A DNA stretch of 56,439 bases from a virus, in IMG/VR virus record IMGVR_UViG_3300034374_008412, positions 1 through 56,439 of that record. One strand, written 5' to 3'. Of this stretch, positions 9,680 to 51,269 are shown in pieces; position 1 is the stretch's first letter; every line of letters begins with the position of its first letter. The translations under genes were made by a program, and so were the position numbers. The notes under the pieces were generated by a model. That model was not told where the DNA came from and did no database searches. It saw only the letters and a program-made list of their open reading frames with translations.

Positions 9680-10456
9680 ATGGAAAAGAAAATCAAATTA
9701 AGTCAGAGCCTTATTAAGTCGCTATATGCGTATAAGATGGGCGAAAAATGTGGTAAACTTATTGAAGCACACTATGTAGATGGAGTTCAATTTCCTTCTA
9801 CCGATGCTATGGAACTTGGTAACTACTTTGAGTACATTTGTACGGGAAGTTTAGCAAGGGATGGGCATACTCCCGAACCAACTACTACAAAAAAGGGAGA
9901 ACCAACTGCAAAGTATAAGTTAATGCAGGAACAGAAAGCAAATTTTGACAATATAATGTCAAATTATGGTTTCAAAATATTATCAATAGACCACCACTTT
10001 AAATCTAAAGAGTATTCGGGAATTGCAGATATAATTGCAGAAAAAGATGGTCAGAAAGTTATTATTGATGTTAAAACTTCGGGTTTATTAGAAGACAAAT
10101 GGAGTGATTTCGGTTGGCATAATGACTTTGTAATGAATAATGATAATTTAATGATACAAGCAAGGCATTATAAAATGTTAGCCTATGAAGAATGGGGAGT
10201 AGAAAATATACCTTTTTACTTTATGGTGTTCAGTACAACTAACGCAGTTGATTGTAAAGTGTTTGAAGTTGATTGTCCAACAGAATCATTAGATATGCAC
10301 CAAAGAAATTCAGAAGGTGCAAAAAGAATATTAGATAAACTATTAATTGATGGTTTTGAATCTATACCAAGTGTTAAAGAATGTGCTAAATGTCCTTTAA
10401 AAGATACTTGTAAAGACTTCACAAATGTTCCACCAATAGTAAAAATAGAATGTTAG
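9680..10456 (+). CDS. Cas4/RecB-like PD-(D/E)XK exonuclease
   Basis: A 258-residue protein with the RecB-type nuclease core: LGNYFE near 46-51, D117 in GIADIIA, and D130-x-K132 in VIIDVKTSG. A QARHYKMLAYEEW helix carries the conserved Gln and Tyr of the RecB motif. The C-terminal cluster ECAKCPLKDTC suggests the iron-sulphur site seen in Cas4 and AddB. It would resect double-stranded ends to feed the RecT protein two genes downstream, making a two-part recombination system. It follows the promoter at 9634 with the recurrent short leader agaatcagtt. Confidence 0.85.
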   Translation: MEKKIKLSQSLIKSLYAYKMGEKCGKLIEAHYVDGVQFPSTDAMELGNYFEYICTGSLARDGHTPEPTTTKKGEPTAKYKLMQEQKANFDNIMSNYGFKILSIDHHFKSKEYSGIADIIAEKDGQKVIIDVKTSGLLEDKWSDFGWHNDFVMNNDNLMIQARHYKMLAYEEWGVENIPFYFMVFSTTNAVDCKVFEVDCPTESLDMHQRNSEGAKRILDKLLIDGFESIPSVKECAKCPLKDTCKDFTNVPPIVKIEC

Positions 10457-11026: not shown

Positions 11027-12142
11027 ATGAGTAAACAATTAACAACTTGGGAAAAATCGTTATCAGAAGGGCATACAAAGTACCTTAAAACGATGAATTA
11101 TGATGCAAACAATGTTCCACAAGAAGTAAAGCAAAAAGCTATGCAGGAAATTGGTTTTGCGTATCAGTCAATGATTAACAACACAATGCTCCAAAATTGT
11201 GAGCCACAAAGTATTGTAAATGCAATTACAAATATTGCAAGAACTTCAATAACTCTTAATCCCGTAATGAGATTAGCTTATTTAGTTCCTCGTAATGGTA
11301 AATGTGTTTTAGACTTCTCTTATATGGGTATGATTAGTTTATTAAAGAATAATGGTAACATTAGAACTATCAATGCTTATATTGTTTATGAAGACGAAGA
11401 TTTTAGGCACGATATTGTGGAAAATGTAATCTATCACACACCACGATATGCAAAAAGCGAAAAAGAACATAATACAAGAAGTATTCTTGGAGCATATTCA
11501 ATCGCTAAACTTCCAACGGGAGAAGTAGATTATTGCTTTATGCCTTATTGGGAAATAGAGAAAGTTAAAAACACTTCTAAAGGTGGAGATTCAAAGTATT
11601 CTCCTTGGGTTACTTGGAAGGATGAAATGATTAAGAAAACAATCATTAAAAGACATTTTAAGATGCTTATTAGTGTTAATGATACTTTTAATTCAAAGCT
11701 AACAACATTATTAGAAGTTGAAAATGATAATAATGGTTTGCAGGAGCAATACAAAGTTCAAAACAAAAGAAATGGTTTAGGTAATGCTTTTATTGAAGAA
11801 GAAGTTGTAGAAAAAACAAATACCGAAAGTAGAATTGCTGAAATAGTTGATTTTACAGAAGAAGAAACTAAAGTTGAAGAAAAGGTTTCTGCTCCAAAAA
11901 AAACAACTAAAACCCAAACCAAAACAAAGGCTACTAAAACAAAGATAGAAAGCCAATTAGATAATCTCGAAAATGATACTTTGTTTGATGATGAAGAAGA
12001 ATTGCCGAATGAAGTTATAGACCAACAAACGGGAGAAATAATAAGTTTTGAAGATGGAGAAGATGTTATTTCAGATGAAATGTTTGAAGATATTAAATCA
12101 CAAGAGAAAAAGTTTCAAGATAACCAATTAAGAATTGAATAA
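11027..12142 (+). CDS. recT: RecT-family single-strand annealing protein
   Basis: The N-terminal 230 residues have the RecT pattern. An early helix region lies around SMINNTMLQNCEPQSIVNAI. LNPVMRLAYLVPRNGKCVLDFSYMG (about 77-105) is the family's most typical segment, followed by the YEDEDF and GAYSIAKL strands and KKTIIKRHFKML. RecT proteins coat resected single strands and pair them with homologous DNA. Residues 260-371 are an added low-complexity tail, first Lys/Thr-rich, then very acidic; such tails can recruit host single-strand binding protein. The exonuclease partner is at 9680. The gene ends before the bidirectional terminator. Confidence 0.9.
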   Translation: MSKQLTTWEKSLSEGHTKYLKTMNYDANNVPQEVKQKAMQEIGFAYQSMINNTMLQNCEPQSIVNAITNIARTSITLNPVMRLAYLVPRNGKCVLDFSYMGMISLLKNNGNIRTINAYIVYEDEDFRHDIVENVIYHTPRYAKSEKEHNTRSILGAYSIAKLPTGEVDYCFMPYWEIEKVKNTSKGGDSKYSPWVTWKDEMIKKTIIKRHFKMLISVNDTFNSKLTTLLEVENDNNGLQEQYKVQNKRNGLGNAFIEEEVVEKTNTESRIAEIVDFTEEETKVEEKVSAPKKTTKTQTKTKATKTKIESQLDNLENDTLFDDEEELPNEVIDQQTGEIISFEDGEDVISDEMFEDIKSQEKKFQDNQLRIE

Positions 12143-28763: not shown

Positions 28764-29264
28764 TTAAAAGTTTGTAATTTTACTTGCTAAAGTTAATTGT
28801 TCCTCATCATCTAATTCTGACTTTAATCTCTCAGATAATGATTCTCCACCTTGTATTCTTGAATATGATTCTGCTACTTTTGATACATTACCTTTACTTC
28901 CTAATTGCTCAAAAACACCATAAATAGCTTCTTCATCAGTTCCCCAACCATCAACTGCATCTTTAATTATATTAGCATAAGATACTGCTTGTTGTTCAGT
29001 TATTGATTTACCACCATTAGTTTTATACCATAATGGCGACCAATATCTTCCCGACCAAAGACTATCGTTTACCTTATCCATTTCTTTTGATTCGGGAGTA
29101 TCAATAACACCCGTTTTCTTTAGGATAGGTCTAACAATACCAAAATAGGCAAAACCTATTACTACGGGTATTCCTATCACATATAAATATACTTGTGGTG
29201 GAATCATCCCTAAAGCACTTGCTCCTGCTTGACCTTGTGTCATACCCTTTCCTTTAACTGCCAT
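28764..29264 (-). CDS. Membrane-anchored annexin-like repeat protein 3
   Basis: A 166-residue, more divergent member: a hydrophobic span near 22-45 (PPQVYLYVIGIPVVIGFAYF), then AVDGWGTDEEAIYGVFEQL and, about 40 residues later, LSERLKSELDDEEQL, the helix D-E pattern of an annexin repeat. It differs in having a longer N-terminus and a longer linker. It overlaps the metallopeptidase gene by 11 nt. Confidence 0.7.
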   Translation of the reverse strand: MAVKGKGMTQGQAGASALGMIPPQVYLYVIGIPVVIGFAYFGIVRPILKKTGVIDTPESKEMDKVNDSLWSGRYWSPLWYKTNGGKSITEQQAVSYANIIKDAVDGWGTDEEAIYGVFEQLGSKGNVSKVAESYSRIQGGESLSERLKSELDDEEQLTLASKITNF

Positions 29265-30024
29265 ATTCCCAATTTTTTATAAAAGCATCTAACTTTTCAA
29301 ATCTATCTAAACTTTGTTTACTATTTGCTGACTTAAATACATTTAAGAAAACATTATATGCATCTATTCTTGGATAACCTAATGCTAAATAAATTCTAAG
29401 TCCATTTAAGTCTGCTTCAACCTCACTACTCGGAGTTTTATTAACGTAATAATGCGAATACTCGTGAAGTAAAATAGCCATTCTCATAGGTATAGAATAC
29501 CTTTCAAATGCTTTTTTTGACACTTCTATTCTACCCGTTAATTGACTTATCCTTGCAGGAGTTTTAATTGGCTTATTGTCTGCCTTGCTCCTTACTTGGT
29601 CGTAATAGTCAATTTGAAATTTACCATTATCACTAAAGTAACTTTCTCCTTTCATACTTGCAGGAAGATAACTTGCTTCCTCTGAAAATTCTTGTGCGAA
29701 ATTTACAAAAGCCTTTGTCTTCCTTGACATAGGTATTCTTTTAGTGCTTTTTAAAGGCAATATTTCTATTGCTTTTATTTTAAACCCATCATTATTTAAA
29801 GGTGTTTGCCCATCTTTATAAACTAACAACCTTGAAACATTTGCACTTTCGGGTAAACCGATATAATATATTTCAGTACCATTAACCCTTGCGTACCTTT
29901 TAGAGTAATATGTTTTTGGTGCATTTGCATCACATATCTTTATCCATAGTTTTTCTGACTTTGGAGTAGATATTACTACTTTTATAGTACAAGCTAATTC
30001 ATCTGTTTTTATATCTCTAACCAT
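29254..30024 (-). CDS. Zinc metallopeptidase (HExxH) of the virion module
   Basis: Start taken at ATG 30024, 1 nt after the stop of the upstream gene; a longer frame begins with GTG. The 256-residue protein has an N-terminal beta-rich region (about 1-95) and a C-terminal zincin domain with LLHEYSHYYVNK (H187, E188, H191) and, ten residues on, SSEVEADLNGLR whose Glu/Asp supply the third zinc ligand. No signal peptide is visible. It is embedded among virion membrane genes, so it may mature structural or polyvalent proteins, or attack the host envelope. Confidence 0.75.
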   Translation of the reverse strand: MVRDIKTDELACTIKVVISTPKSEKLWIKICDANAPKTYYSKRYARVNGTEIYYIGLPESANVSRLLVYKDGQTPLNNDGFKIKAIEILPLKSTKRIPMSRKTKAFVNFAQEFSEEASYLPASMKGESYFSDNGKFQIDYYDQVRSKADNKPIKTPARISQLTGRIEVSKKAFERYSIPMRMAILLHEYSHYYVNKTPSSEVEADLNGLRIYLALGYPRIDAYNVFLNVFKSANSKQSLDRFEKLDAFIKNWEYGS

Positions 30025-30025
30025 C

Positions 30026-30292
30026 CTATAACGATGCTTCTGCACCTTCTAATTTACCACTCTTATTTAATTTATAAATACCATATATAGCTAAAGCAAC
30101 ACCGAAAGCAATCATCAAATTTCTTTTTCTTTTATTTCCGATTTCACTCATAGTTGGAGTATTACCAACTGCGTTTCTATATGTATTTTCATCGTGAACT
30201 TCTAATTGACCTTCTTTTTGTTGTTCAACTAACCATTCTTTAAATGGCTTTGAAGTTCCACTCATTTTGTATTTTTGGTTTGCACTTGACAT
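30026..30292 (-). CDS. Single-span membrane protein
   Basis: An 88-residue protein: soluble, polar N-terminal two-thirds (KPFKEWLVEQQKEGQLEVHDE), then a basic stretch (NKRKRN), a span (LMIAFGVALAIYGIYKL) and a short polar end. Unknown. Plan shared with other C-terminally anchored proteins here. Confidence 0.7.
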   Translation of the reverse strand: MSSANQKYKMSGTSKPFKEWLVEQQKEGQLEVHDENTYRNAVGNTPTMSEIGNKRKRNLMIAFGVALAIYGIYKLNKSGKLEGAEASL

Positions 30293-31844: not shown

Positions 31845-32582
31845 TTATCCTCTTCTTCCTTTCAAAGCACGTAATGCACCTTTTGAAAGTTTTAAAGTTT
31901 CAGATTTTACAAGTCTTGGGTTTCCATAACCTCTAACTGCTCTTCTACCCGTTAAAGTTCTTGCAGTAGATACAGTTTCAGAAGGATAGAAGTAAATCTT
32001 CACAACTGCTGATGCTAATACTGAACTTAATACGATTGCTGTGAAACCATCAATTTTATAAGAGAACTTCACAACTACGATAGTAGATTGTTGCTGATAA
32101 GGGTCAATAGTTGGAACTAAAGTCTTTTGACTTTCATTACCATTAACATCCTTTTGAATTAATGTTAAAGTTTCTAATACTTGGTTAGCAGTAGAAGATT
32201 GGTAATAGGTTTGCCCCACTACGAAACTTTTATTCATTGACTGATACAAAAATTCTTGGTAAGTAACCCCTGCAATTCCCATTGTAATAGAAATCGCTGA
32301 CGAATTTTGCCAATTCGGAGAAGAATAAGCTAACGTACTATACGCACCTAAAATAGTACAAGGAAACGCAGTAGTCGTGTTCGTGTTTGTGATAGATACG
32401 ATGTAAGGTTGAGATGTCGGAGCAGATGCTTGTCCTACTGCCATATCAAACTCATCATCTGCGTAACCATCGAAATCATAATCTTCATCTGCAAAATCGT
32501 AGTCGTCATCCCACCCATCTGCATTGAAGAAATTTTCGTTAGCTTCTTCTTGTGCTTCTGAAAAATATTTTCTTAAATCCAC
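31845..32582 (-). CDS. Candidate major capsid protein
   Basis: A 245-residue protein in three parts. Residues 1-50 are extremely acidic (FFNADGWDDDYDF, DEDYDFDGYADDEFD) with FDG/DGW motifs shared with nearby membrane proteins. Residues 55-200 are strand-rich (TYQEFLYQSMNKSFVVGQTY, LTLIQKDVNGNES, then IDPYQQQ, KIDGFTAIVL, VKIYFYP). Residues 205-245 are basic. The middle resembles my memory of capsid proteins of FLiP-like and other jelly-roll viruses (a Pro-Tyr-Gln-x-Gln stretch before a DG strand). Own promoter, own terminator and position beside the ATPase fit a capsid. The core is short for a double jelly roll, so a single jelly roll is possible. Confidence 0.55.
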   Translation of the reverse strand: MDLRKYFSEAQEEANENFFNADGWDDDYDFADEDYDFDGYADDEFDMAVGQASAPTSQPYIVSITNTNTTTAFPCTILGAYSTLAYSSPNWQNSSAISITMGIAGVTYQEFLYQSMNKSFVVGQTYYQSSTANQVLETLTLIQKDVNGNESQKTLVPTIDPYQQQSTIVVVKFSYKIDGFTAIVLSSVLASAVVKIYFYPSETVSTARTLTGRRAVRGYGNPRLVKSETLKLSKGALRALKGRRG

Positions 32583-32960: not shown

Positions 32961-33773
32961 TTATTTATTTGGAATGTACATTTTTACCATTAAATCTTTA
33001 ATATGTTTATGTGCAGTTTCGGGAGTAAACTTTAGCTTACCTTTTGCATCTCTCATATTTAGTAAAGGTTTAACTTTTTTATTGTAATTCAAAGAAATGT
33101 ATTCATCAATAGCTTCTAATATTTGTTTTTTGCTATAATTACCATAGATATATTCATCATCACAATTATATGTAACGTGAAATCTTTTATTTCCATTATG
33201 ATATTGGTTATTAACCATAATCTCTACTAACTTCAATGCTTCGTGCCTATCATCAAACTTTTTATGATGTTTGTCAACTGAATCAGAATTTTTGTGAAAT
33301 CTAATCCAATTTAAGTTTTGCCATACTTTAGGCGATACACGACCAATACTTTGAAAGTGCATAATAATATCAGTAGAGGTATGACGATTAGTACATAAAG
33401 CACCAATAAGGTCATTCGGAGCATAGTCAGAAACATATTTATTGACATCTTCTATTAATAATAACCCCCCTTTGTAATTATCTAAAATAAGTTTTAGTGT
33501 ATCTGCAATTTCAGTTAAACTCATTTTTGAACCATCGGGGTTATATGGTCTTATTCGTCTAACTTCTACTTTTGGATGGTGGCTAAATACTTTAACGTGG
33601 GAAATTGATAAACCCTTTACATTTTCAAATTCATCGTTTACATCAAGTATTAATGCTCTACGAGGTCTAATTGTTGAACCACCTTTAACATATTGCTCTA
33701 TGACTTGCATAGTAGTATATGTTTTTCCTATTCCTTTTTTACCAACTGCAACCCCTAATTGTGCTTCTCTCAT
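32961..33773 (-). CDS. Packaging-type P-loop ATPase (FtsK/HerA, A32/P9-like)
   Basis: A 270-residue ATPase with Walker A GKKGIGKT (11-18), Walker B LLLIED (104-109), TNRH (128-131) and a sensor Gln (141, FQSIGRV), followed by QNLNWIRFHK. This order and compact size match the genome-packaging ATPases of membrane-containing icosahedral viruses. The filamentous-phage Zot-type ATPase is the main alternative, but that family has a membrane span and no capsid neighbour. It would pump DNA into preformed capsids. It overlaps the upstream glycosyltransferase gene by 4 nt. Confidence 0.8.
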   Translation of the reverse strand: MREAQLGVAVGKKGIGKTYTTMQVIEQYVKGGSTIRPRRALILDVNDEFENVKGLSISHVKVFSHHPKVEVRRIRPYNPDGSKMSLTEIADTLKLILDNYKGGLLLIEDVNKYVSDYAPNDLIGALCTNRHTSTDIIMHFQSIGRVSPKVWQNLNWIRFHKNSDSVDKHHKKFDDRHEALKLVEIMVNNQYHNGNKRFHVTYNCDDEYIYGNYSKKQILEAIDEYISLNYNKKVKPLLNMRDAKGKLKFTPETAHKHIKDLMVKMYIPNK

Positions 33774-38762: not shown

Positions 38763-40535
38763 CTAATTAATTGGACTACCTATTTTAGAATACTCTCTAT
38801 TTTGTGGAAGTTTCATACCACCTTCTTCTATAATATTGTAATTATTATTTCCACCATCAACAATCATATATCCATCAACCTCTTTTTTAATTTCATTAAG
38901 AGCAGATTTACCTTTACTAAAGAAATCATCAATCACTTCTAATGGAACAAACCTTCCCGATTTTTGGTATCTTTTTAAGGCTCTATCAACTATTACATCT
39001 TTAGGTACATTATCAATGTAAACTACATAAATCTTATATCCAAGTTCTTTTAATATTTTGATTAATGGAAGATACGATTTAGTATTGTTCATTGTTCCAT
39101 CATAAATTAAATCGAAATTACAAGGCAAACCAATAGTTCTATCAGACAATAAAGTATTTACAATGTCTTTAGTTTCTAAATGTGTTTGAGATGCGTTCCA
39201 ACCTTCATATTCGGGTAACATAGAACGAACTTCATCAGCATCAATTCTTAATAGTTCTTCGCTTAATAAATAAGGTGCATATTTTTTAAGGAATGTACTT
39301 TTACCACTTGCAGGAGAACCACCCATTAAAATAGCAATAGGTTCATCAGATTCAATACAAACTAAATTGTCTTTAAACTCATTAAGTATTTCTTTATGAA
39401 GTTTTTGTCTTGCAGGAGAATACTTTTTTGTTTTCTCGTTAAAGTGTTTAGACTTTGTTTGCTCCAAAGAATTTACATAATCAGTAAGTTCCTTGATGCT
39501 TTTTCTGTCAATCTTTCTTGTACCATCAGAATCAAACAATTTGTCCTTCATTTCCTTTGACATAATTGTTCCACCTTTTTCGTAGTATTCCGACCAATTA
39601 ATTTTAGTCTTACCACCTTTAGCAAATTCTTCAAACCCTTCTAATTCATTTAATGAAACACCTATTGGTCTTAAACCATAAGGCTCATTATCTAACCCGT
39701 AATCAAAAGTATATCCTGCCGATTCCATTTCTTTAAGGAAGTTCTTACTATCCTTGTAATTATAGTCGCCTTCTATGATTTTAGCTTCGTACTTTGCATA
39801 TATATCACGAGCATCTTTTGGTAACTTTTCGTAGTCCTCAAATAAATCTACCATTCCACCTTTAGCGAAAGAGCCACAAGTAGGGCAAACTTCTCCACCT
39901 TTTGCGTAATAATTACCTTTTCTTTTAGATTTATAGGCTTGTTCCCAAGGTTCTTTGCTCAATCTTCTTGCATCTACCCTTCTTGAATGTGTAGTTCTTC
40001 CACCTTTAGCGAATAAACTTATTCCCGTTCCATCCTCTACCCTAATTGTAGCATTTGGATATTTCTCTTTAAGAACTCTATAATGAGCAGGAATTAATTG
40101 CCAATCTTGAATACTAATAGCTTGTTCTAAAACTTTACGATTATCAGTATCTACTGCAACCACAGAAAAAGGAGCATTATAATTATGTATATCTTTCATA
40201 ATACTTCTTAATCTTCCACCTTTAGCAAAGTTTGTAATATAATCTCTATTAACATTATATTGAGCATTTGAAATAAACCTACTATTCCAATTAGAATTAT
40301 TTAGTCTATATGCTTCATCTTTAGTGTGATTTTGTAAATATTCTACTATATCAGAATCGGGTTTATTAATCTTTTCTCCAATTATTTCAGTCCAACCATT
40401 AGGAAGTACATTAGTTTTTACCTCATACCCCATACGTTCATAGTACGGGATAAAAGGTTCAACTGAAAGTTCGGGATGCAGTCTTTCAAGAACTACACCC
40501 CCTTTTTCAAATCTTTCTTCGTTTAAAATATCCAT
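38763..40535 (-). CDS. AKGG-punctuated polyvalent protein with zeta-toxin-like kinase
   Basis: A 590-residue protein in modules separated by FAKGG, YAKGG or EKGG. The C-terminal module has a P-loop kinase of the zeta toxin / polynucleotide kinase type: AILMGGSPASGKSTF (Walker A near 408), IDADEVRSMLPEY, a Thr-His-Glu segment, and DGTMNN. A zinc-like CPTCGSF lies between two KGG motifs. One module (SKEPWEQAYKSKRKGNYYAKGG region) is duplicated in the 40538 protein. I infer a precursor cut at KGG sites or a virion protein delivered with DNA; zeta-type kinases phosphorylate UDP-sugars or nucleotides. Confidence 0.7.
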   Translation of the reverse strand: MDILNEERFEKGGVVLERLHPELSVEPFIPYYERMGYEVKTNVLPNGWTEIIGEKINKPDSDIVEYLQNHTKDEAYRLNNSNWNSRFISNAQYNVNRDYITNFAKGGRLRSIMKDIHNYNAPFSVVAVDTDNRKVLEQAISIQDWQLIPAHYRVLKEKYPNATIRVEDGTGISLFAKGGRTTHSRRVDARRLSKEPWEQAYKSKRKGNYYAKGGEVCPTCGSFAKGGMVDLFEDYEKLPKDARDIYAKYEAKIIEGDYNYKDSKNFLKEMESAGYTFDYGLDNEPYGLRPIGVSLNELEGFEEFAKGGKTKINWSEYYEKGGTIMSKEMKDKLFDSDGTRKIDRKSIKELTDYVNSLEQTKSKHFNEKTKKYSPARQKLHKEILNEFKDNLVCIESDEPIAILMGGSPASGKSTFLKKYAPYLLSEELLRIDADEVRSMLPEYEGWNASQTHLETKDIVNTLLSDRTIGLPCNFDLIYDGTMNNTKSYLPLIKILKELGYKIYVVYIDNVPKDVIVDRALKRYQKSGRFVPLEVIDDFFSKGKSALNEIKKEVDGYMIVDGGNNNYNIIEEGGMKLPQNREYSKIGSPIN

Positions 40536-40537
40536 AA

Positions 40538-42616
40538 TTACATATTAAATTCGTTCTTCATAAATTGTGCTTGTCTGCGAGTTCTTTCATCGTAGTAAGA
40601 AGGATTATGTAATACTTGATTCATAAAATCTTCTGTATCTAAACCTCTTGCTTCTGCTTTGCGTGAAAATGAATTTTCAACATTTCCACCTTTAGCAAAT
40701 TTATCTTCATCTATTGCATAATAAATGTCTTCTCCTCTTATATAGTCATCTACACCTTCTTCTCCATATACTGCAACACTATATCCATCTAATTCAATAG
40801 CAGTATCATCATTTTGTCCATTTGAGTAAAGCATATCCATTAATTCTTCAATAGTTTGCTTATCTCTTTTTCCACTTTTTAGTTTTTTAGATAATTCTCT
40901 TGAATTAATTGAATAATTTTCTCCTTGTAATGGCTCATTTTCATCTAACCAATAGATAGCAATATCAATAATATCACTTGATGCAGTTACTCCACCTTTA
41001 GCATAGTAATTACCTTTTCTTTTTGACTTATATGCTTGTTCCCAAGGTTCTTGGCTTAATCTTGCTCTGTCTTTTCTGATTGAACGTAATGAACGAGTTT
41101 TACCACCTTTAGCAAATAAGTGTTCATAGTCTTCAAGCATATCGTATTCTTCTAATACTTCTTTTGCTTTTTCATCACTATCATAAGCAACGTATGAATC
41201 TTGTACTGCATAATAAACATCTGAATCTCTACCCCAATCTTCTGCGATAGCACTTAGAACTTTTCCACCTTTAGCGAATTTTTTACCTTTTAATCTATTT
41301 GAGAAATTATCTTCCATAAAATAGTGTAATGGTGCTTCTTTTACTGAATTATTTAATGCTGAAACCATTAATAAAGCATCTCCTTTACCTTTAACTAAAG
41401 CAACAAACTCTCTGTTATCTTTATTTGGGTTATTAGTATTTGTAACAAAAATGTCATAACCTAATTGTTTATCTACAATTACAGATTTAGTAGAACCACC
41501 TTTAGCAAAGTTAATTCCTGCACTTTCTCTTGCTGACAAAATCATATTTTCAAGACCTTTAAGTGTCTTTTTTCCATAATTAGTTTCTATTTTACCATTA
41601 GAAGAATTTATTGTGAAAATTGACTTTGCAATCGTTTCGGAATCAAATTGAGTATTTGAAATCATATCCGATAAACCTTCAATAGATTTTTTACCTCTTG
41701 ACGTTTGTATTTGACCACTCATCTCATTTGGCTCAAATATAGCTTTAACTATATCTGAATCTACCTCTCCACCTTTAGAATACATAGATGGCTTTCCACC
41801 CATCCAAGGAACTTCGTATGCTTGAACTCCTGCTCCAAGTTCTCCACCATAACCATAATCTCTTAATAAAACGTCAATTTCCTTTCTTAAATTAATTAAG
41901 AACTTTTTTTGGTCGTCTTTCTTGAATCTACCAATTTCATCACTAACAGATTCTATGAATTTAGTAGTAGCAGATATAAGGTCTTCGGTCATATCCTCAA
42001 CCTTTTTCTCAATGATTTCCTCTTTCTTTTTTTCAACTTGCTTTTTAACCTCTGTTGCAGTTTTACCTTGTGGCTTAACAACTTTTTTAGCTTCTCTCTC
42101 TGCTTCTTTTTCTATTTGCTCTACTTCCTTTTTAATTTTTGGAGCAACTTCTTTTGCAGTTGTTTTAGTTGTAGCATCAGCAGTTTTAACATTAGTACCA
42201 TCAATGATTTCATCTTTCTTTTTAAGTTCTGAAACTCTTTCTTTTTGCTCCTTATTTGTTTTAAGTCGCATAGCTTCATACTTGGCAAGAATTTCTTTAC
42301 ATTCCTCTATTGTCTTACCCGTAGCATCTTTAACTTCTGCCTTCTTTTTCTCTCTTTCCTCTTTTGTAGTTTTAGGCTTTGTAGTTCTCTTTGCAGTTGT
42401 CTTTTTTGCAGGACTTTTCTTTGGAGCAGGACTTTTTTTTGCTCCACCAATACTAAACTTTGTTTTTAATCTACCTATCTCTTTTTTCAAGTCTTCATCG
42501 GCATCTTTCTCTAATTTGCCAATCATATCTTTAAGACCTTTCAAGTAAAATTCTCTTTCTTCTCCTTTTTCAGAATCTATTACTTGCTCGAACATTGTTA
42601 AATTTTCTTTGCTCAT
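40538..42616 (-). CDS. AKGG-punctuated polyvalent coiled-coil protein
   Basis: A 692-residue protein. Residues 1-240 are a Lys/Glu/Ala-rich coiled coil with a Lys-Pro-Ala basic stretch (PKKSPAKKTTAKRTTKPK), likely DNA-binding. The rest is a string of small modules ended by YSKGG or FAKGG (six copies), 40-90 residues each. One module repeats a segment of the 38763 protein. Several modules have the look of small alpha/beta domains (FVTNTNNPNKDNREFVALVKG) but no enzyme motif. Abutment (2-nt gap) to the 38763 gene suggests a common origin. Confidence 0.65.
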   Translation of the reverse strand: MSKENLTMFEQVIDSEKGEEREFYLKGLKDMIGKLEKDADEDLKKEIGRLKTKFSIGGAKKSPAPKKSPAKKTTAKRTTKPKTTKEEREKKKAEVKDATGKTIEECKEILAKYEAMRLKTNKEQKERVSELKKKDEIIDGTNVKTADATTKTTAKEVAPKIKKEVEQIEKEAEREAKKVVKPQGKTATEVKKQVEKKKEEIIEKKVEDMTEDLISATTKFIESVSDEIGRFKKDDQKKFLINLRKEIDVLLRDYGYGGELGAGVQAYEVPWMGGKPSMYSKGGEVDSDIVKAIFEPNEMSGQIQTSRGKKSIEGLSDMISNTQFDSETIAKSIFTINSSNGKIETNYGKKTLKGLENMILSARESAGINFAKGGSTKSVIVDKQLGYDIFVTNTNNPNKDNREFVALVKGKGDALLMVSALNNSVKEAPLHYFMEDNFSNRLKGKKFAKGGKVLSAIAEDWGRDSDVYYAVQDSYVAYDSDEKAKEVLEEYDMLEDYEHLFAKGGKTRSLRSIRKDRARLSQEPWEQAYKSKRKGNYYAKGGVTASSDIIDIAIYWLDENEPLQGENYSINSRELSKKLKSGKRDKQTIEELMDMLYSNGQNDDTAIELDGYSVAVYGEEGVDDYIRGEDIYYAIDEDKFAKGGNVENSFSRKAEARGLDTEDFMNQVLHNPSYYDERTRRQAQFMKNEFNM

Positions 42617-42625
42617 AACTATTGT

Positions 42626-44083
42626 TTATTTATTCATTAAATTTAAAAGTTTTATTTTCTTTTCGATTAGTTCCTTATCTGAACCACTTGCACTTGTAAG
42701 CATTAAAGTTAATACTTTCAGTTTTTTATTAATTATATTATTTGATGGATTAATATTTTCAACAAAAGAAGTTTTATTAATTTCATCTTCTTTACCTAAT
42801 CTGTTTATTAATTGAATAGTGTTTTTATCCACTTCACTTTCAAAAGTTTTTTCAAAAATTTCATCTTCACTTAATTGTTCTCCAAACATATTAGGCTCAA
42901 TGTTTTGCTCCATTGAATTATTATACTTTGATAAAACATTTTTAAGTTTTGTTGAATTTTCTTTTGTAACTGAATTTATAATTAATGCTTTTTTATTTTT
43001 ATGCCCTTCTTTTATATCTCCAAAATCAAATGTTTTTTGTTTGATATAATCTTTTAAAGATATGTTACCATTATTTACTAAATCATTTTGAATTAAAAAT
43101 GAATCGTTTATTGAATCAATTAAACTTCCTTTTGATAAAGACTTATTTTTAATTAATGGTATAATAGCATTAACAATATTTTTAGTATAACTTTTTACTC
43201 CATCATTTTGAGAAATTTCAAGGCTATTTTCATTTAAAACTAAACTTAAAAGTATAGTGTTATACATTATTTTACCTTGCTCTGATAAACTATTTGAAGT
43301 AAATAAAGCAGAAATATCATTTTCAGTTATTAAACCACAATCAAGTAATATTTTTTTGAATCGTGAAACACTACTTACATTATTATATAATTCTGAAACA
43401 ATTTCTTGTTCATTTATCAAATCAATAAGTTGATTTTGACAACCTTCGTTCTTTTGTAATAATTGACTTATCCTAATTGACTTATCAATCTGTTTTTCAG
43501 ACTTTGCCCTACTAACATTATATTTATTTAATTCAGTAGAGTTGTATTCGTTAAAATCTACATCAATTCTAACTAAAATTGGAAACTTGAAATCATTACG
43601 ATTTAGTAAGCGATAAGGGTCTAATGTATTTCCATATCCACCATATCCAAGTTCTCTTAATAATGTTTTTCTATAATTAGCATAGTTTTCGGGATAATCA
43701 CTTTTAGCAAGTTTTAATGACATTACTCGATTATTACCACTAACAACAATACCATCTAAAGATATTATAGGAGTACCACTTGAAGTAGCACTTGTTGATA
43801 TTATAATATTTGGCTCTAAATTTTGAGCAACACTTTGAACTTTAGCTTGTGCATTTTCATCATTTTTGTAGTTCCTATCATTTACATTTCTGCCATTTTT
43901 ATCTACGGGATAGTCTTTTGAATTACTAAACGTTTTTTCATTGTGAGATGCAACTATGCTATCTAATTCACATACTGCAAAATAAGATTTTCTTATCTCA
44001 TTATTACCAATCAACAAAATTCTTTCCCTACCTTTTACGATAGGGAATGAACTAAATTTTTCTATTCTGTAACCTACTCTCAT
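42626..44083 (-). CDS. DdrB-like ParB-superfamily polyvalent protein
   Basis: A 485-residue protein. The N-terminal 190 residues match the DdrB-like ParB domain of phage P1-type polyvalent proteins: RVGYRIEKFSSFPIVKGRE, then ISTSATSSGTPIISLDGIVVSGNNRVMSL, the DG..V.GN.R core seen in ParB-like nucleases, followed by a long helical region. In P1, DdrB acts with the Dar proteins against host restriction. The C-terminal 33 residues (KLKVLTLM, SGSDKELIEKKIKLLNLM) are a tag shared with the 44098 protein. Confidence 0.75.
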   Translation of the reverse strand: MRVGYRIEKFSSFPIVKGRERILLIGNNEIRKSYFAVCELDSIVASHNEKTFSNSKDYPVDKNGRNVNDRNYKNDENAQAKVQSVAQNLEPNIIISTSATSSGTPIISLDGIVVSGNNRVMSLKLAKSDYPENYANYRKTLLRELGYGGYGNTLDPYRLLNRNDFKFPILVRIDVDFNEYNSTELNKYNVSRAKSEKQIDKSIRISQLLQKNEGCQNQLIDLINEQEIVSELYNNVSSVSRFKKILLDCGLITENDISALFTSNSLSEQGKIMYNTILLSLVLNENSLEISQNDGVKSYTKNIVNAIIPLIKNKSLSKGSLIDSINDSFLIQNDLVNNGNISLKDYIKQKTFDFGDIKEGHKNKKALIINSVTKENSTKLKNVLSKYNNSMEQNIEPNMFGEQLSEDEIFEKTFESEVDKNTIQLINRLGKEDEINKTSFVENINPSNNIINKKLKVLTLMLTSASGSDKELIEKKIKLLNLMNK

Positions 44084-44097
44084 AAATTGCTTATTGA

Positions 44098-47000
44098 TTA
44101 ACTTGCCATTTTCATTAAGTTCAGTAGTTTTATTTTCTTTTCAATTAAGGACTTTTGTTCTCCTTCGGCAGTCATAACCATTAGATTAAGAAGTTTAAGT
44201 TTTTTATCAAAAATTGAAAGTTCCTTAACTTCTTCCTTTTGTTCCTTAATTTCCTTCTTTTGTTCCTTAACAACTTTTTTACCCGTTTTTTCTTCTAAAT
44301 ATTTTTCATCAAAAATATCAAGTAGTTCATTTCCAAGGTAATCGGGATTAGGTTTTGCAAATAATATAGATGCTTCTAAAGGACTTAAAGGTTTATCGCC
44401 TAATTGTTCACGTTCCTTAATTTCAATTTCTGCTTCCTTAATAAGTTCTTCTTCATATTCTTTACCATCTATTGATTTTAATTTATCAGTAAGTAAAGCA
44501 ATATCTTCTCTGAACTTCGTTAGTTTTTCTGTTAATTGGTCTTCATTTTTAATACCTAAAGGAATTAAATACTTTTTCCAATATTCATCATTTTCACGAA
44601 CCCATCTCGACCACTCTAATCCATAGTAATTGCCTTTTAAGTATTCATCAGTAAAGTAGTCTTTTACTTTAGCAAATGAATTGAATGATTCTATAACTTT
44701 TTCTTTATTCCAAAAACTTAATAGAGGTTTAAAAGGGGTTTCATAATAATCTTTTCCGAAGAAATTTAAACTTTTATAATCAGTATCTAAATTATATCTC
44801 AAACTTTCTGCCCAATCAAATACATCTCTTAATTCTTCAATAGATTTTTTTGAACCTAATTTTAATTCTTTACCACTTAAATCAAAATTGTCTAAAACAA
44901 CAATAGGATTATCTAATGATTCCATATTGTTTTCGTTTAATGTAATATCTTCGGCAACATTATCTCCACCTAAGTCTATATCATAGCTACGCATCTCTGC
45001 ACTCGCACTTGGATTAAGCACTTCTAAAATAACTCCTTCTTTATCTCCTCTACGAGTTGAAAATTTTACTTTTTCCCCTACCTCAAATTTTGGTAATGGT
45101 TTATTCTTTTCTTCCTTCCATCCCGTTTTATAACCTCTTGGATATTCAATAATTGCATCCTTTCTAAATACATTCATTAATTCAGTTAAGTCTTCAAATG
45201 AATAATTTAACGCATCGGGGTTTACTCTTAATTGTCTTCCCTCTTGTAAAGAAGTAGGTCTAAATAATAAATCTTCATCTCTTACTAAAGGTTTGTCAAT
45301 TAAACTCGGTCTAAAAAAGTTAAGGAAGTTCCAAACTGCTTGAAGTGGATTAGATGTTCTATATCTATTATTATAATTTTTTAAATCGTTGTATTTATCA
45401 ATTATGTTTCCACTAATCTTTCTAACCTCACGCATACCATTATATTCAGTTGTTTGTTCAGTTAGCTTTTCAGTAATTTCTTTAACCTTTTCTTTTTTAA
45501 TTAAATCGGCTATTTGTTTCGGGTTTCGTGAAACTTGCCTTGTCATTTCTTCGGGGTCGAAATCATCTAAATCAAATTCATTTTTACCATCACGTTCCCA
45601 AATTTGATTAATCCTTCCCGTTTTCTCCTGCAACTTTGAATAAATAAAGGCATCTAAACTATTTTCAAGTAATGGAATAACTATACGAACATTAGCAAAT
45701 GCGTTCTTTTGTCGCCATATACGACCTTCTAATTGTGTCATATCAGTAGGATTCCAATCTACCTCACAAACGTAAAGACAAGTAGAATAGAATTGTAAGT
45801 TTACACCTTCTTTAATTGAATTTGAACCAACTAATACTTTTATTCTATCTTCATCGGGTATAGATACATATTTAGGGTTTTTTGGGTCTGTAATATCCAA
45901 TCTTCTACCTAAGAAAGCATCTTGAACTGCATCTTTTCCTTTTTGTTTCTTTTTACCAATAAAGTTTTCAGAAGCAATAATACCTACTTCGTGTTCTTTT
46001 AAACCTAAATATTCAACGCAATAATCAGTTATTAAGTTAAAACAATTTGTTCCTTTAGTCATAAAAATAACTTGACCCGACATAGGAGTTTTTGTTTTTT
46101 CGTGATGCTCTTTTACACTTTTAATACATTCTATTGCATATTCAATTTTTGGACTGCTTTGAACAAACTCGGCAGGAGTAGGGTCTTTATCATACGGAGC
46201 AAAACGATAGAAATAAGGAGATAAAGCAATAGTTCTACCATAAGTTAATGCAAATACACTTCGTATTCCTCCTGCGTTATAATCTGCTCTATTACCTTCT
46301 TCTGCATCTTTTTGTGCTTTTTTAAGCATCGCTTTGATACTACCACATTTTGTATTGTTCCAATACTCTTGGTCGGATAATTGCTCATAAGTCATTTTTC
46401 CCTCTCCGTATGATTCCAATCTTTGCCATAGTTCTTGTTGCTCTCCACTCATTTTAAGCAAAGTAGTAACTTGATTAGAATCTGAAACTTTTATGTTTTC
46501 TTCTCCTATTCTTTTATCCCATAATGGGAGTACAACCTTATTAGGTCTTCTAACCTTTGATGCTTCTTCTTCTTTTGTAGGTTTATCAATTAACGAGTAA
46601 ATTAAACCCTGCATAGCAACCACATTTCTAAAACCTTTTACAACTTGTTTATTAATAGGTTGTAGTGTTGTTGTTACTGCACTTATTGTTCCAATATCAG
46701 CAAAGAAATCAAAGAAATCTGCCATACTTCCAAAACCATTAGCTTTAAGGAAATCGTATCTAACTAAAGATAACATCGCATAAATCTCTAACGGAGTATT
46801 TGTAAATGGAGTAGCAGTAAGCAATAAGCAGTTTCCGTTAGGACTTTTCATTTGAACATATTGAGCAATAGAAAATAATTTAATCGCTTCAATAGATACA
46901 CTTCCCGTAATTGTATAACCACTTGACTTTTCTCTTTTCCCCGTTTCTTCATTTATTCTTGCTTTAACGGATGCAAATAAGTTTTTATAATTATGTGCTT

Positions 47001-48918
47001 CATCAACTACCAAATAATCCCATCCTATTTCATCAAAGAATACTTCTGTTTCAGATTGTGCTAATCCTACAAATTCAGCAGTCTTTTGTGCAATTCTTGA
47101 CTTTTCTCTTTCCCCTCTTTTATCAAGGTTTTCTTCATCCATTCCTTGCTCAATAATCCCCTCGTATCTTTTATAAAGTTTTTTACCCGTTTCATTGTCT
47201 TTAAACCCTAAAATACCTAAAGCACTTGCACTAATTATTGTAATTGAATTATCTTCTACTTCCTTTGCAAGTTCTGAATAAATACTTCTTAAATTGTATA
47301 AACCATTTACCTTGTATTGTGGTAAAAGCATTTTTATTTCTTGTAAGAATTGAGGATAAACAGAATTAGGAACAATTATTAAAGGTCTTTTACATAACCC
47401 CATATCTAAATTTTGACCTATTGTAAATATGGAACAAAATGTTTTACCCATACCTACACCATAAGCTAAACAAGAAGAACCCGTTAGCATATTAAAACCT
47501 AATGCTCTACGTTTTTCGGGTCTTATGTCCATTGTACCAACCCCTACATTCTTAACGAATTGAAATAAAATAGGAACTCTGTTTACATCAAAGTTTAATA
47601 ATCCGTTGTATTGTTGATTCCATACATTTTCAATACCTATTCTATCTACTTCCTGCAAACCTTTTTCAAGGAATAAAGCAAACAATTCATTTCCTATATC
47701 TTTTATCTCTTGCAATTTAACATACCAAGAATCTTTAATGATTGTTTCTTTACCCACACCCGATAAATAATTTTCGGGAATAGCCTTTTTATTATTTGCA
47801 TTGTATTTACCATTAACAAAGAATTTCATTACTAAATCGTAATTAACCCCCGATGGATATATAATATTATAATCTGATGCAGTATATTGAGAAAAGTCTG
47901 TGTACCAAAAAATAAAGGCTTCCTTTAATGTAAGTTTATAATCTCCAAAATAAGCATTACGACCATTTCTTGATTCGGGAACATATCCTTTCGCAGTTTC
48001 ATTAACTTTCCATTCTATTTTACCATCATCTTTTCTTATCCAAGAAGTCCAAGACCTATCAAAAGATTTTTCGTCTATTGGAACACAAGGAGAAACTTTG
48101 AAATCTTCTGCAAACTTACCATCTATTCTTATAAAAATTCTTTTTGACTTATCTGCTCCTGCAAGTGTAAGTTTATTATCATTTACTTTTGATAAAGCAT
48201 CTTTAATTGCGTTTAGATGATTTTCATAAACATCTTCCCCAAAGTTACTTACATAAAAATCTTTATCTTTTACTAATGCTTGATTTTTCTTTCTAATATT
48301 ACCACTTGCATAGTAGAATGTAGGCTTATATCTCCTACGTTCTTCATTTTCGGTATTATCAAAACATAGAACACCCTTCTTCATTAACATTTTAATATTT
48401 GAAGGATTATCTTGAATATCGTATTTTTGAAAACCACCTTGTATTGGCTTACCCGTAAATCTTTTTATATAAAGAACGTATGCTTGTTTTTCGGCTTCTG
48501 TAATAGCTTTTGAGATGAGGTTTCCATCTTTATCGTACCTTGCACCATTATATTCTTCATCTACTTCATCATACGACCAAATATTTTCGGAAGGAGAAAA
48601 ATCGGGAGAAAGTTTTGTTTCTCTTTTTTTGTCAATCCTTTTCTTTGATTTAGTTAAAGCAGTATCAATGTTTGCTACTTCACTTGGAGTTGCGTTTGTT
48701 TCATTTATAACAACCTTTTCAGTAGATACTAAAGGGTCTTCATTTGAAACTTGCATATAATCGGGAATATCTAAAGAAAACAACTTTTCTTTATCTCCAA
48801 TAATAGTTGTGTAAACTTTATCTTTATCGTATTTAGTACCCTTATGTGTTTTTACTTCTCCTAATATTTTATCGGGGTTATCTATAAACCACCTTGCGAA
48901 TTTGTCTAAATTTTCCAT
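44098..48918 (-). CDS. Giant SNF2-family helicase (DarB/strawberry-notch-like polyvalent protein)
   Basis: A 1606-residue protein with a SNF2-type helicase core: Walker A GVGMGKTF (about 487-494), DEAHNYKN near 640, LLLTATPFTN near 700, a C-terminal helicase motif VI QLEGRIWRQKN near 1067, and between them an insertion-rich segment. N- and C-terminal extensions of 480 and 500 residues look like extra modules; the last 33 residues match the tag of the 42626 protein. DarB-type proteins combine helicase and methylase domains and travel in the P1 head to shield incoming DNA. Here the methylase lies in the next gene at 49161. Confidence 0.8.
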   Translation of the reverse strand: MENLDKFARWFIDNPDKILGEVKTHKGTKYDKDKVYTTIIGDKEKLFSLDIPDYMQVSNEDPLVSTEKVVINETNATPSEVANIDTALTKSKKRIDKKRETKLSPDFSPSENIWSYDEVDEEYNGARYDKDGNLISKAITEAEKQAYVLYIKRFTGKPIQGGFQKYDIQDNPSNIKMLMKKGVLCFDNTENEERRRYKPTFYYASGNIRKKNQALVKDKDFYVSNFGEDVYENHLNAIKDALSKVNDNKLTLAGADKSKRIFIRIDGKFAEDFKVSPCVPIDEKSFDRSWTSWIRKDDGKIEWKVNETAKGYVPESRNGRNAYFGDYKLTLKEAFIFWYTDFSQYTASDYNIIYPSGVNYDLVMKFFVNGKYNANNKKAIPENYLSGVGKETIIKDSWYVKLQEIKDIGNELFALFLEKGLQEVDRIGIENVWNQQYNGLLNFDVNRVPILFQFVKNVGVGTMDIRPEKRRALGFNMLTGSSCLAYGVGMGKTFCSIFTIGQNLDMGLCKRPLIIVPNSVYPQFLQEIKMLLPQYKVNGLYNLRSIYSELAKEVEDNSITIISASALGILGFKDNETGKKLYKRYEGIIEQGMDEENLDKRGEREKSRIAQKTAEFVGLAQSETEVFFDEIGWDYLVVDEAHNYKNLFASVKARINEETGKREKSSGYTITGSVSIEAIKLFSIAQYVQMKSPNGNCLLLTATPFTNTPLEIYAMLSLVRYDFLKANGFGSMADFFDFFADIGTISAVTTTLQPINKQVVKGFRNVVAMQGLIYSLIDKPTKEEEASKVRRPNKVVLPLWDKRIGEENIKVSDSNQVTTLLKMSGEQQELWQRLESYGEGKMTYEQLSDQEYWNNTKCGSIKAMLKKAQKDAEEGNRADYNAGGIRSVFALTYGRTIALSPYFYRFAPYDKDPTPAEFVQSSPKIEYAIECIKSVKEHHEKTKTPMSGQVIFMTKGTNCFNLITDYCVEYLGLKEHEVGIIASENFIGKKKQKGKDAVQDAFLGRRLDITDPKNPKYVSIPDEDRIKVLVGSNSIKEGVNLQFYSTCLYVCEVDWNPTDMTQLEGRIWRQKNAFANVRIVIPLLENSLDAFIYSKLQEKTGRINQIWERDGKNEFDLDDFDPEEMTRQVSRNPKQIADLIKKEKVKEITEKLTEQTTEYNGMREVRKISGNIIDKYNDLKNYNNRYRTSNPLQAVWNFLNFFRPSLIDKPLVRDEDLLFRPTSLQEGRQLRVNPDALNYSFEDLTELMNVFRKDAIIEYPRGYKTGWKEEKNKPLPKFEVGEKVKFSTRRGDKEGVILEVLNPSASAEMRSYDIDLGGDNVAEDITLNENNMESLDNPIVVLDNFDLSGKELKLGSKKSIEELRDVFDWAESLRYNLDTDYKSLNFFGKDYYETPFKPLLSFWNKEKVIESFNSFAKVKDYFTDEYLKGNYYGLEWSRWVRENDEYWKKYLIPLGIKNEDQLTEKLTKFREDIALLTDKLKSIDGKEYEEELIKEAEIEIKEREQLGDKPLSPLEASILFAKPNPDYLGNELLDIFDEKYLEEKTGKKVVKEQKKEIKEQKEEVKELSIFDKKLKLLNLMVMTAEGEQKSLIEKKIKLLNLMKMAS

Positions 48919-48919
48919 T

Positions 48920-49156
48920 TTAATCTACTAATCTATTTGGGTCTAAAATTTGTTCTTTTAAATTTACTGCTTGGTCTATTGTATCTCCCAATGCCATTCT
49001 TTGTAAAATGAATTGCTCTAATTCCTTATATCCTTTTTCAGTAGATGCTAACTTACATACATAAAAAGAATCGTTTTCATTACAAAATTCATCAATGAAG
49101 GCTTTAATAGTTCTTTTTGCCTCATTAATAATGTACTTTTTATTATCTATATTCAT
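48920..49156 (-). CDS. Small protein between helicase and methyltransferase genes
   Basis: A 78-residue helical, acidic protein (IIDNKKYIINEAKRTIKAF-like start; FILQRMALGDTIDQAVNL near the end). It has the size of a small adaptor and lies with 1-4 nt gaps between the two large genes, so it may link their products. Not recognised. Confidence 0.65.
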   Translation of the reverse strand: MNIDNKKYIINEAKRTIKAFIDEFCNENDSFYVCKLASTEKGYKELEQFILQRMALGDTIDQAVNLKEQILDPNRLVD

Positions 49157-49160
49157 AACC

Positions 49161-51269
49161 TTATTTTTTTCTTAAAACAATTATATCGGCATCAACACTT
49201 GTAAATTCAAACATTGAATTACCTAATCTATAAGCATCAACTAAATCAGATTTAGCCAATATTCTACTTTTAGATGGTGTCATTTTCTTTTCTAAAAAAG
49301 GAACTCCACCTAAAGCATTAACACTACCAATTACAAATACTAATAATCCATTTGGAACTAATAAGTCTAATCCTCTTTGAATAAAGTAATCAATGAAATC
49401 ATCTGCCTTTGTATGTTTTTTTTCTGATTTACTTCCACCCATTACTGCATACTTACCTTTATATTCTCCGTATGGTGGGTTTCCTATAACTAAATCATAC
49501 ATAGGTGTAACATTATCTTTAACCGATTTATAGTTATTTATAAATAACTTTTCAAATGAATCGTGATAGAAATTAAATCTATCTTCAGTATATAGAATTT
49601 TGTTTATCATATAACAATACTTGTTAATATCATAACCATCTATATTTACATTTAAAGGTGCTTGGCTAATAAATGCTCCTGCTCCCATTGAAGGTTCAAG
49701 TACGTTTTTAATACTTAAATTTCCACTATGTTTATAAGCTAATCCCCACATAATTTGACAAAGTTTTGCAGGAGTAAAAAATTCGTAAAGCAATCCATAA
49801 TCAAAATCAACCCCTTCGCCTACATCCCTTCTTTTTGCACCATACTTCTCCATTCCACCTATTCCCGTATATTCAGAAATAAACTTCTTTTCTATTACAG
49901 AATAGTTATTTGGGTCTTCGCCTTTTTCATCAAGCATATTTTCTATTGCTTCTGCTTTTTCAAAAGGGTTTTTAAAAGAATTTTCTTCTATTAGTTTTTG
50001 CCAATCTGTTTTCATTAAAGTTGGCACTACCATTCCTTTTTCTGCTTCATATCTTTTGATAGGTGGTTGAACTCCTTGTGGATATTCTTTTTCTAATATT
50101 TCATTAATAGTTTTATACTTCCAATAGAAATCAAGTTGGGGTTTATTTAATGGACTTAAATCATTATCAATTAAATACTCTTTTGGAATATAGCCAAACT
50201 CTGCCATCTGCCAATCTCCATTTAAAACTACAAAACCATAAAATTCATTTGCTCTATCCCATTCTGTTATATACCAATCTGTACCACCAACAAAGTAATG
50301 TAAATAACATACTGCATTTTTACCTTTACCATCCTGCTTGTATAATTTTGGAATTTCTTGATATGCGTTTACAACATTTATAAGCATATCTCTTACTTCT
50401 ATTGGGTCTGCTCCACCATCTTCTTCTAACTCCATTAAATAAGCAACTTGTTGTTTTGGTACAAGTTCTTTTCTTGCATCCATCCACAACTTTACTTTAT
50501 CTTCAACACTTCCACCAAACTCCATTTTACGAGTTTTAATATCTGCATATTCAGTTAAAGGAAAAGACCTTAAATAATGTAATAATTCTCTTATAGGTAA
50601 ATCAATACGCAAGGCTTTAATTTCCTTATCGTTCATTTCTGCCCACTTCCATCTATGATGTCCATCTAAAACATAATCATCGGAAGAAACAATTAAATGC
50701 TTACTATTAACTAAATCTTCCGTAATCATATTAACCCTATCCATATTAATTTCTTTTTGGGTAGGTTTAAGGTTTTTTGCTTCTATAATAGAATAACCAT
50801 AGCTAATATTATCTTCTTTTAATGTATCTAAAAAATCATCTAAATAATGACTTCTAACTTGTGGCATTTCGTGTCTATATAAGCCTAAAGAATTATCGTG
50901 ATAAATAATTGTAGGTATCTTAACTCCATTTTTAGCAAACAAATCTATTCTTTGTTGTTTTTGCCAACCTTCGTAATCAATTTCATCACTAACTGAACCA
51001 CCTTTAGCGTATTTATATTTTTTACCCTCAACTGAATCACAATCTAATGTAACTCCATTATTATTTTTACTATTCAAATCAGAAAGTATTTCGCAAGTCG
51101 TTTTTTGTTCTCCCTCAAATTCATATTTAGTAGGGTCTGCAACATTAGTTTTATTGACAATAACTTCTCCACCTTCAAACTCTATTCTTTGACCCGTGCT
51201 TTTGACTTTAGCTTTTATTCCACCTTCTGCGTGGCTTTTACCTTTTGCTAATCCACCTTTTGCGTTCAT
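49161..51269 (-). CDS. Polyvalent protein: KGG leader, ParB-like, DUF2958, adenine DNA methyltransferase
   Basis: A 702-residue fusion. Residues 1-100: KGG-type leader (MNAKGGLAKGKSHAEGG, IEFEGGEVIVNKTN, YKYAKGG), a pattern recurring in virion and plasmid proteins of Bacteroidota. About 100-260: ParB-like domain with VLDGHHRWKWAEM near 203. About 280-390: DUF2958-like (CYLHYFVGGTDWYITEWD, GDWQMAEFGYI). About 450-702: Rossmann N6-adenine methyltransferase with EPSMGAGAF and the catalytic NPPYGEYKG near 598. The methylase probably protects viral DNA from host restriction. Confidence 0.8.
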   Translation of the reverse strand: MNAKGGLAKGKSHAEGGIKAKVKSTGQRIEFEGGEVIVNKTNVADPTKYEFEGEQKTTCEILSDLNSKNNNGVTLDCDSVEGKKYKYAKGGSVSDEIDYEGWQKQQRIDLFAKNGVKIPTIIYHDNSLGLYRHEMPQVRSHYLDDFLDTLKEDNISYGYSIIEAKNLKPTQKEINMDRVNMITEDLVNSKHLIVSSDDYVLDGHHRWKWAEMNDKEIKALRIDLPIRELLHYLRSFPLTEYADIKTRKMEFGGSVEDKVKLWMDARKELVPKQQVAYLMELEEDGGADPIEVRDMLINVVNAYQEIPKLYKQDGKGKNAVCYLHYFVGGTDWYITEWDRANEFYGFVVLNGDWQMAEFGYIPKEYLIDNDLSPLNKPQLDFYWKYKTINEILEKEYPQGVQPPIKRYEAEKGMVVPTLMKTDWQKLIEENSFKNPFEKAEAIENMLDEKGEDPNNYSVIEKKFISEYTGIGGMEKYGAKRRDVGEGVDFDYGLLYEFFTPAKLCQIMWGLAYKHSGNLSIKNVLEPSMGAGAFISQAPLNVNIDGYDINKYCYMINKILYTEDRFNFYHDSFEKLFINNYKSVKDNVTPMYDLVIGNPPYGEYKGKYAVMGGSKSEKKHTKADDFIDYFIQRGLDLLVPNGLLVFVIGSVNALGGVPFLEKKMTPSKSRILAKSDLVDAYRLGNSMFEFTSVDADIIVLRKK

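Follow-up and report, generated by a model that had tools for sequence, protein, structure and literature searches.

Several proteins encoded by one uncultured virus carry copy after copy of the same short Gly-Gly motif, and the question is what this motif does: does it mark the sites where a polyprotein is cut, join modules, or present a signal to another protein? The window analyzed here, 56,439 nucleotides in length, is a whole IMG/VR virus record (IMGVR_UViG_3300034374_008412), for which an earlier note, made from the sequence, had proposed that the motif may be a processing code in giant proteins.

Motif-bearing proteins of the window

Three genes on the minus strand encode most copies of the motif. 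The 38763-40535 product, a string of modules with seven motifs, contains a zeta-type kinase (Zeta_toxin, Pfam PF06414; 38847-39359) toward its C-terminal side, and the 40538-42616 product has a Lys-rich N-terminal region followed by six motifs; at 590 and 692 amino acids (aa), respectively, both are of ordinary size; the motif is there as described, but the label “giant” does not fit. The first 280 residues of the 40538 product resemble histone H1, being rich in Lys, Pro and Thr; such a region is a frequent start of strings, seen also in the related contigs L067, L079 and L080, and could hold the string protein on packaged DNA. The 49161-51269 product (702 aa) combines a GG-rich leader of 90 aa with ParB-like (phrog_2859), phrog_5203 and N6-methylase regions. 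The same strand of this block encodes a ddrB-like ParB domain protein (42626-44083) and a 1606-aa SNF2-type helicase with DarB-like PHROG matches (44098-48918), neither of which contains a single copy of the motif. The 38763, 40538 and 49161 products are polyvalent-type proteins, put together as strings of small separable domains. At least two disparate catalogued domains occur in one polypeptide, namely, the ParB-like and methylase domains of the 49161 product, and relatives combine ART-PolyVal with DUF5824, or Zeta with DUF5824 and ART.

The strict motif, [FY][ASE]KGG, is present in 14 copies across these three products (7, 6 and 1, respectively), and the 721-1650 product, outside the range covered by the note, has a 15th copy at its C-terminus, compared to a mean of 0.023 and a maximum of 1 in 2000 residue shuffles of the motif proteins. 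The 38763 product contains FEKGG (residues 9-13; 40497-40511), FAKGG (40215-40229 and 39999-40013), YAKGG (39894-39908), FAKGG (39855-39869 and 39612-39626) and YEKGG (39570-39584), and the 40538 product contains YSKGG (41768-41782), FAKGG (41495-41509, 41264-41278 and 41102-41116), YAKGG (40991-41005) and FAKGG (40685-40699), all on the minus strand. On the same strand, the YAKGG of the 49161 product (residues 87-91; 50997-51011) closes the leader module, and a variant, NAKGG, occupies residues 2-6 (51252-51266). After the YSKGG of the 721-1650 product (1627-1641, plus strand), only KL remains before the stop codon.

The repetition and near-identity at the DNA level that had been noticed previously are thus borne out: with at most one mismatch, CCACCTTTAGC occurs 15 times in the window versus 0.53 expected, and the 10 exact copies all lie within motif-bearing ORFs. 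Two of the one-mismatch matches fall in other genes, one of them encoding YVKGG in the ATPase gene. Successive motifs are separated by 13 to about 100 residues, which replaces the module length of 40-90 residues given before. The earlier note was right that one module is common to two proteins: a module of ~35 aa (EPWEQAYKSKRKG; 39897-39998, minus strand) is duplicated in the next protein (SxEPWEQAYKSKRKGNYYAKGG in the 38763 and 40538 products; second copy of this EPWEQAY module at 40994-41101, minus strand) and is found also in L041 and L080.

No match to the KGG stress-repeat family PF10685 was among the Pfam matches for the window strings and their relatives, and nothing relevant to the motif was found in open PubMed Central papers. 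Tandem repeats of the MKKKGYAKGG type occur in short proteins rich in Lys (about 85-170 aa) from L044, L051, L052, L057, L062, L066, L070 and L077; having no modules, these proteins were set aside as probably unrelated or convergent.

A heptad conserved across a virus lineage

Searching with the window ATPase yielded 62 loci from viruses plus two contigs from metagenome bins, with contigs of up to 101 kb, and the lineage considered here consists of about 60 related uncultured virus contigs. Among the loci found with the ATPase and the relatives found earlier, 37 proteins contain at least three motifs under a looser pattern. A module common to L009 and L067 led to L078-L085, where strings reach 1614 aa and 19 motifs (looser pattern). 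The ATPase, the coat candidate and the longest string have no matches among 50,697 cultured phage records; in cultured phages, the 40538 product has no sequence relatives, and the 38763 product has domain-level matches only.

Across these contigs, the complete element is seven residues long, with the form Phi-[A/E]-[K/D/E/N]-G-G-x-[ILVMTF]: the aligned copies have Y/M/F/L at position 0, A or E at position 1, K/D/E/N at position 2, then GG, any residue, and I/L/V/T/M at +6. The collecting pattern set positions 0-4 by class and left +6 free; after removal of repeated contexts, I/L/V/M/T/F was present at +6 in 204 of the 210 unique-context copies from 20 genomes, versus about 30% in these proteins overall. 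This preference is kept in the AK, A[DEN] and other spellings, including YEDGG and FENGG, and the flanks of the heptad hold little further information. The spelling is partly genome-specific, the fraction of identical pairs being 0.123 within and 0.072 between genomes (shuffle maximum 0.10). Across genomes with different spellings, the aligned copies thus show the heptad to be conserved as a protein motif.

Several other features recur in the strings. A short conserved ending, IRKDGEKWTDAIKRAS.QLK, which resembles the internal EPWEQAY module, closes most strings of L115-L171. The module LPTPFGQAGLVGETG..NEIDLFAMGGGLPQGVHQYY, present in two or three repeats per string in L067, L079 and L080, is reminiscent of motifs rich in Gly in tape measure proteins. 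Consecutive string genes overlap by ~40 bases, in a different frame, shortly after the last motif (2-2038 and 1992-5348 in L135; 3-1556 and 1519-3252 in L148).

The heptad separates domains

Twelve string proteins contain 16 Pfam domains of the kinds counted here (zeta, ART-PolyVal, ArdA, RelA_SpoT, DUF2958 and DUF5824), and only one motif, 6 residues from the domain edge, falls inside any of them, versus 12.0 expected. Likewise, the ends of protein matches lie near a motif in 115 of 310 cases versus 45 expected (~2.5-fold; maximum of 75 in 500 shuffles), a comparison that ignores kinship. In L041, the KGG motifs of a syntenic relative of the 40538 product flank DUF5824, ART-PolyVal and ArdA. 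Structure prediction for the 38763 product gives three folded parts (residues 13-55, ~230-290 and ~330-575) and places six of its seven motifs in low-confidence blocks; few or no aligned sequences covered residues 58-220, which makes low confidence there a weak sign of disorder, and one row from an annotated phage record was left out of the folding alignment. The first motif is in a predicted beta hairpin. Domain boundaries and match ends together show the heptad to be a standard junction between domains, in agreement with the view that the motif punctuates separate modules; these modules are, in addition, exchangeable.

Modules are exchanged within the heptad

Compared with L082, L083 and L084, the contig L081 is >97% identical over 3.5-3.8 kb, with one module of about 65-80 residues replaced; all four are metagenome contigs, one of which could be misassembled. 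The breakpoints of the swap are GCTGATGGGGG and GGTGGT: upstream identity stops in GCT GAT GGG GG, and downstream identity restarts at GGT GGT. Over all string genes, 99 of 178 internal ends of DNA matches lie within 20 nucleotides of a motif versus 40 expected (shuffle maximum 75), again with kinship ignored. When only blocks with an identity of 80% or more are counted, 5' ends concentrate in the interval from -16 to 0 nucleotides, measured from the first Gly codon, and 3' ends are most frequent at +4, which is base two of the second Gly codon. Synonymous codon usage in the motif is biased toward GCT for Ala, AAA for Lys and GGT for the first Gly, with no such bias at the second Gly of the motif. 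Because GGT is also favored as the first codon of other Gly-Gly pairs (0.55-0.63), part of the GGT bias is general.

The zeta module of G004 is 80% identical to that of the window although the ATPases are only 60% identical, indicating that modules move independently of the backbone. The PHROG 37263 module (39663-39854, minus strand) adjoins motifs here and in relatives within the lineage; as a control, the same module occurs without the motif in a Cellulophaga phage protein. Sequence comparison shows that viruses exchange, duplicate and replace entire modules, in frame, with breakpoints inside the heptad. That the heptad is a junction at which modules are exchanged is, taken by itself, very probable.

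A conserved heptad at the C-terminus of an unrelated protein

The 721-1650 gene (plus strand), which has orthologs in many members of the lineage, encodes a 309-aa protein with a possibly SHOCT-like C-terminus and is located in the block that contains RecT, not in the presumed virion block. The 16 distinct orthologs, which are 16-28% identical to the window protein, all have the Gly-Gly at this end, with nearly all tails reading PhixxGGx[ILV] followed by the stop codon, and two further near-identical contigs agree with this. In the alignment of these orthologs, only 6 of the 427 columns are invariant, and two of these are the Gly-Gly just before the end. SHOCT-like profiles gave only sub-threshold matches, in one ortholog. 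A few strings also end with the heptad; as a class, proteins ending with the motif are in mild excess (10 versus 5.2 expected), and the case is made by this one conserved family and a few strings. The ortholog alignment shows, then, that an unrelated protein conserves the heptad at its very C-terminal end.

Possible roles of the heptad

The best reading, in our assessment, is that the heptad serves both as an exchange junction and as a recognition tag, a combination to which we give about an even chance. The shared 11 bases (GCTAAAGGTGG) would provide a short homology through which annealing-type recombination joins modules in frame, and the RecT-like annealing protein (11027-12142, plus strand), possibly together with the exonuclease-like protein (phrog_69; 9680-10456, plus strand), could perform the exchange. 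The heptad would be retained because a protein of the virus or of the host recognizes it; its most likely function would be docking or loading, such as the packing of the string proteins into the particle, and the strings would bear many such tags but the 721-1650 protein a single one. Recognition is ranked above processing, and a plain linker appears less likely still, because a linker has no task at a C-terminus and a cut there would free only one to three residues. The tag reading is weakened by the location of the 721-1650 gene outside the presumed virion block and by the merely mild excess of proteins that end with the motif.

Processing, the function originally proposed, would mean that a viral peptidase cuts at or near the Gly-Gly and frees the modules as separate effectors. 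The previously reported metallopeptidase is indeed encoded in the window: the 29254-30045 product (minus strand) is a zincin with an HExxH motif (HEYSH) and a downstream ExEAD, found in 47 lineage loci near the presumed coat and ATPase genes and intact wherever the HExxH region was read, which makes it a fair candidate for a maturation enzyme. The predicted low-confidence stretches around six of the seven copies in the 38763 product are consistent with cleavage, and since many zincins prefer a hydrophobic P1' residue, the hydrophobic +6 position would suit such an enzyme. Furthermore, zincins are believed to process polyvalent proteins, and DdrB of phage P1 is cut before packaging (PMC5512222). 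However, cleavage would remove merely one to three residues from the 721-1650 family and would free modules of 13 residues, some copies lie very close to an N-terminus (residues 2-13), and none of the presumed virion proteins of the window contains the strict motif. As the zincin belongs to the core genes of the lineage, its co-occurrence with the motif carries no weight; in addition, polyvalent proteins usually have their zincin fused to them, whereas here the enzyme is encoded by a separate gene among presumed virion genes. Thus, the sites are not confined to positions between segments to be separated, as expected of a polyprotein cut by a protease, and the idea of a processing code, which gains from the location of the copies and from the intact zincin, loses from the terminal copies. 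We consider it unlikely, though the strongest of the alternatives. The RadC/JAB protease was dropped as a general cutter after Gly-Gly because a RadC-like protein is present in two loci only, in one of them as a module itself.

Somewhat less probable is a plain flexible linker, in which Gly-Gly joins spread with the modules and are kept merely because they tolerate fusion, with no recognition involved. The low predicted structural confidence around most copies would agree with such a linker, and recombinational spread would also account for the genome-specific spellings, but a linker needs neither an aromatic residue or Met at position 0, nor a hydrophobic +6, nor conservation at the C-terminus. 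It is improbable by a wide measure that the DNA came first, with GCTAAAGGTGG or its core, GGTGG, acting as a site-specific or Chi-like recombination signal and the peptide as a by-product. The synonymous bias at three codons, strongest for GGT, and the block ends inside the DNA motif speak for such a signal; yet the protein pattern persists under other DNA spellings (GAAGATGGTGG, GAAAATGGTGG), all exact copies in the window are in frame and within motif-string genes, and GGT comes first by preference in other Gly-Gly pairs as well. A Chi-like site with the GGTGG core was rejected because the exact 11-mer is not scattered across the window.

Relation to known systems and implications

To our knowledge, no such repeated motif is present in the Dar proteins of phage P1. 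Like the polyvalent proteins described by Iyer et al. 2017 (PMC5512222), the strings place unrelated domains in one polypeptide, encoded together, and share with that set the zeta-type kinase, ART-PolyVal, ArdA, ddrB-ParB, SNF2, N6-methylase, RadC and RelA/SpoT domains. They differ in that a single repeated heptad connects small modules and is the site of their exchange, with the zincin encoded separately in the window; the main text of PMC5512222 contains no occurrence of “KGG” or “linker”. DarB-like and DdrB-like domains, known from the Dar proteins of P1 (DarA, DarB, DdrB, Hdf; PMC12810830), are encoded in the same block here; the P1 proteins are packed in the head and injected (PMC12810830).

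The resemblance to proteolytic processing in ASFV, suggested previously, is reduced to the Gly-Gly itself. ASFV and adenovirus processing sites are Gly-Gly with preferred flanking residues between segments of a long protein, and flanked Gly-Gly doublets separate segments here too, but the heptad is also found at a C-terminus, the spacing of the conserved hydrophobic residues differs, and no papain-like or adenain-like protease was found here. Integron gene cassettes offer an analogy only: in both cases, a constant junction permits the swapping of cargo units, but the heptad works in frame within one ORF, and a dedicated integrase and attC-like structure are features of integrons.

Among the ORFs examined in window positions 12800-37250, we found no portal, tail or standard large terminase. 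The ORFs 31845-32582 and 32961-33773 belong to this region, which encodes a HerA/Zot-like ATPase with only sub-threshold Pfam matches and one weak PHROG terminase match, a conserved beta-rich protein of 245 aa beside it and many small proteins with a single membrane span. The structure predicted for the presumed coat protein (candidate 31845) is of low confidence (pLDDT 60) and gave no convincing fold matches. Possibly, then, these viruses lack a tail; the contigs of 40-101 kb would be far above the 7-18 kb of the known prokaryotic double-jelly-roll viruses (PMC5894146).

Going further, one could envisage a protein-level cassette system in which the heptad is at once in-frame DNA homology and protein recognition tag, such that any tagged effector domain from other viruses can be taken into one string, expressed and handled in common; we put this forward tentatively, with less confidence than the junction-and-tag reading on which it builds. 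For the assembly and exchange of multi-domain effectors by phages, natural siblings reveal the exchange points at nucleotide resolution, and the search for a partner can start from a junction peptide that is short and conserved. If the heptad is indeed a tag, sequence alone would suffice to list the effector cargo carried by a lineage of uncultured viruses, and the heptad itself might be a portable tag for loading proteins.
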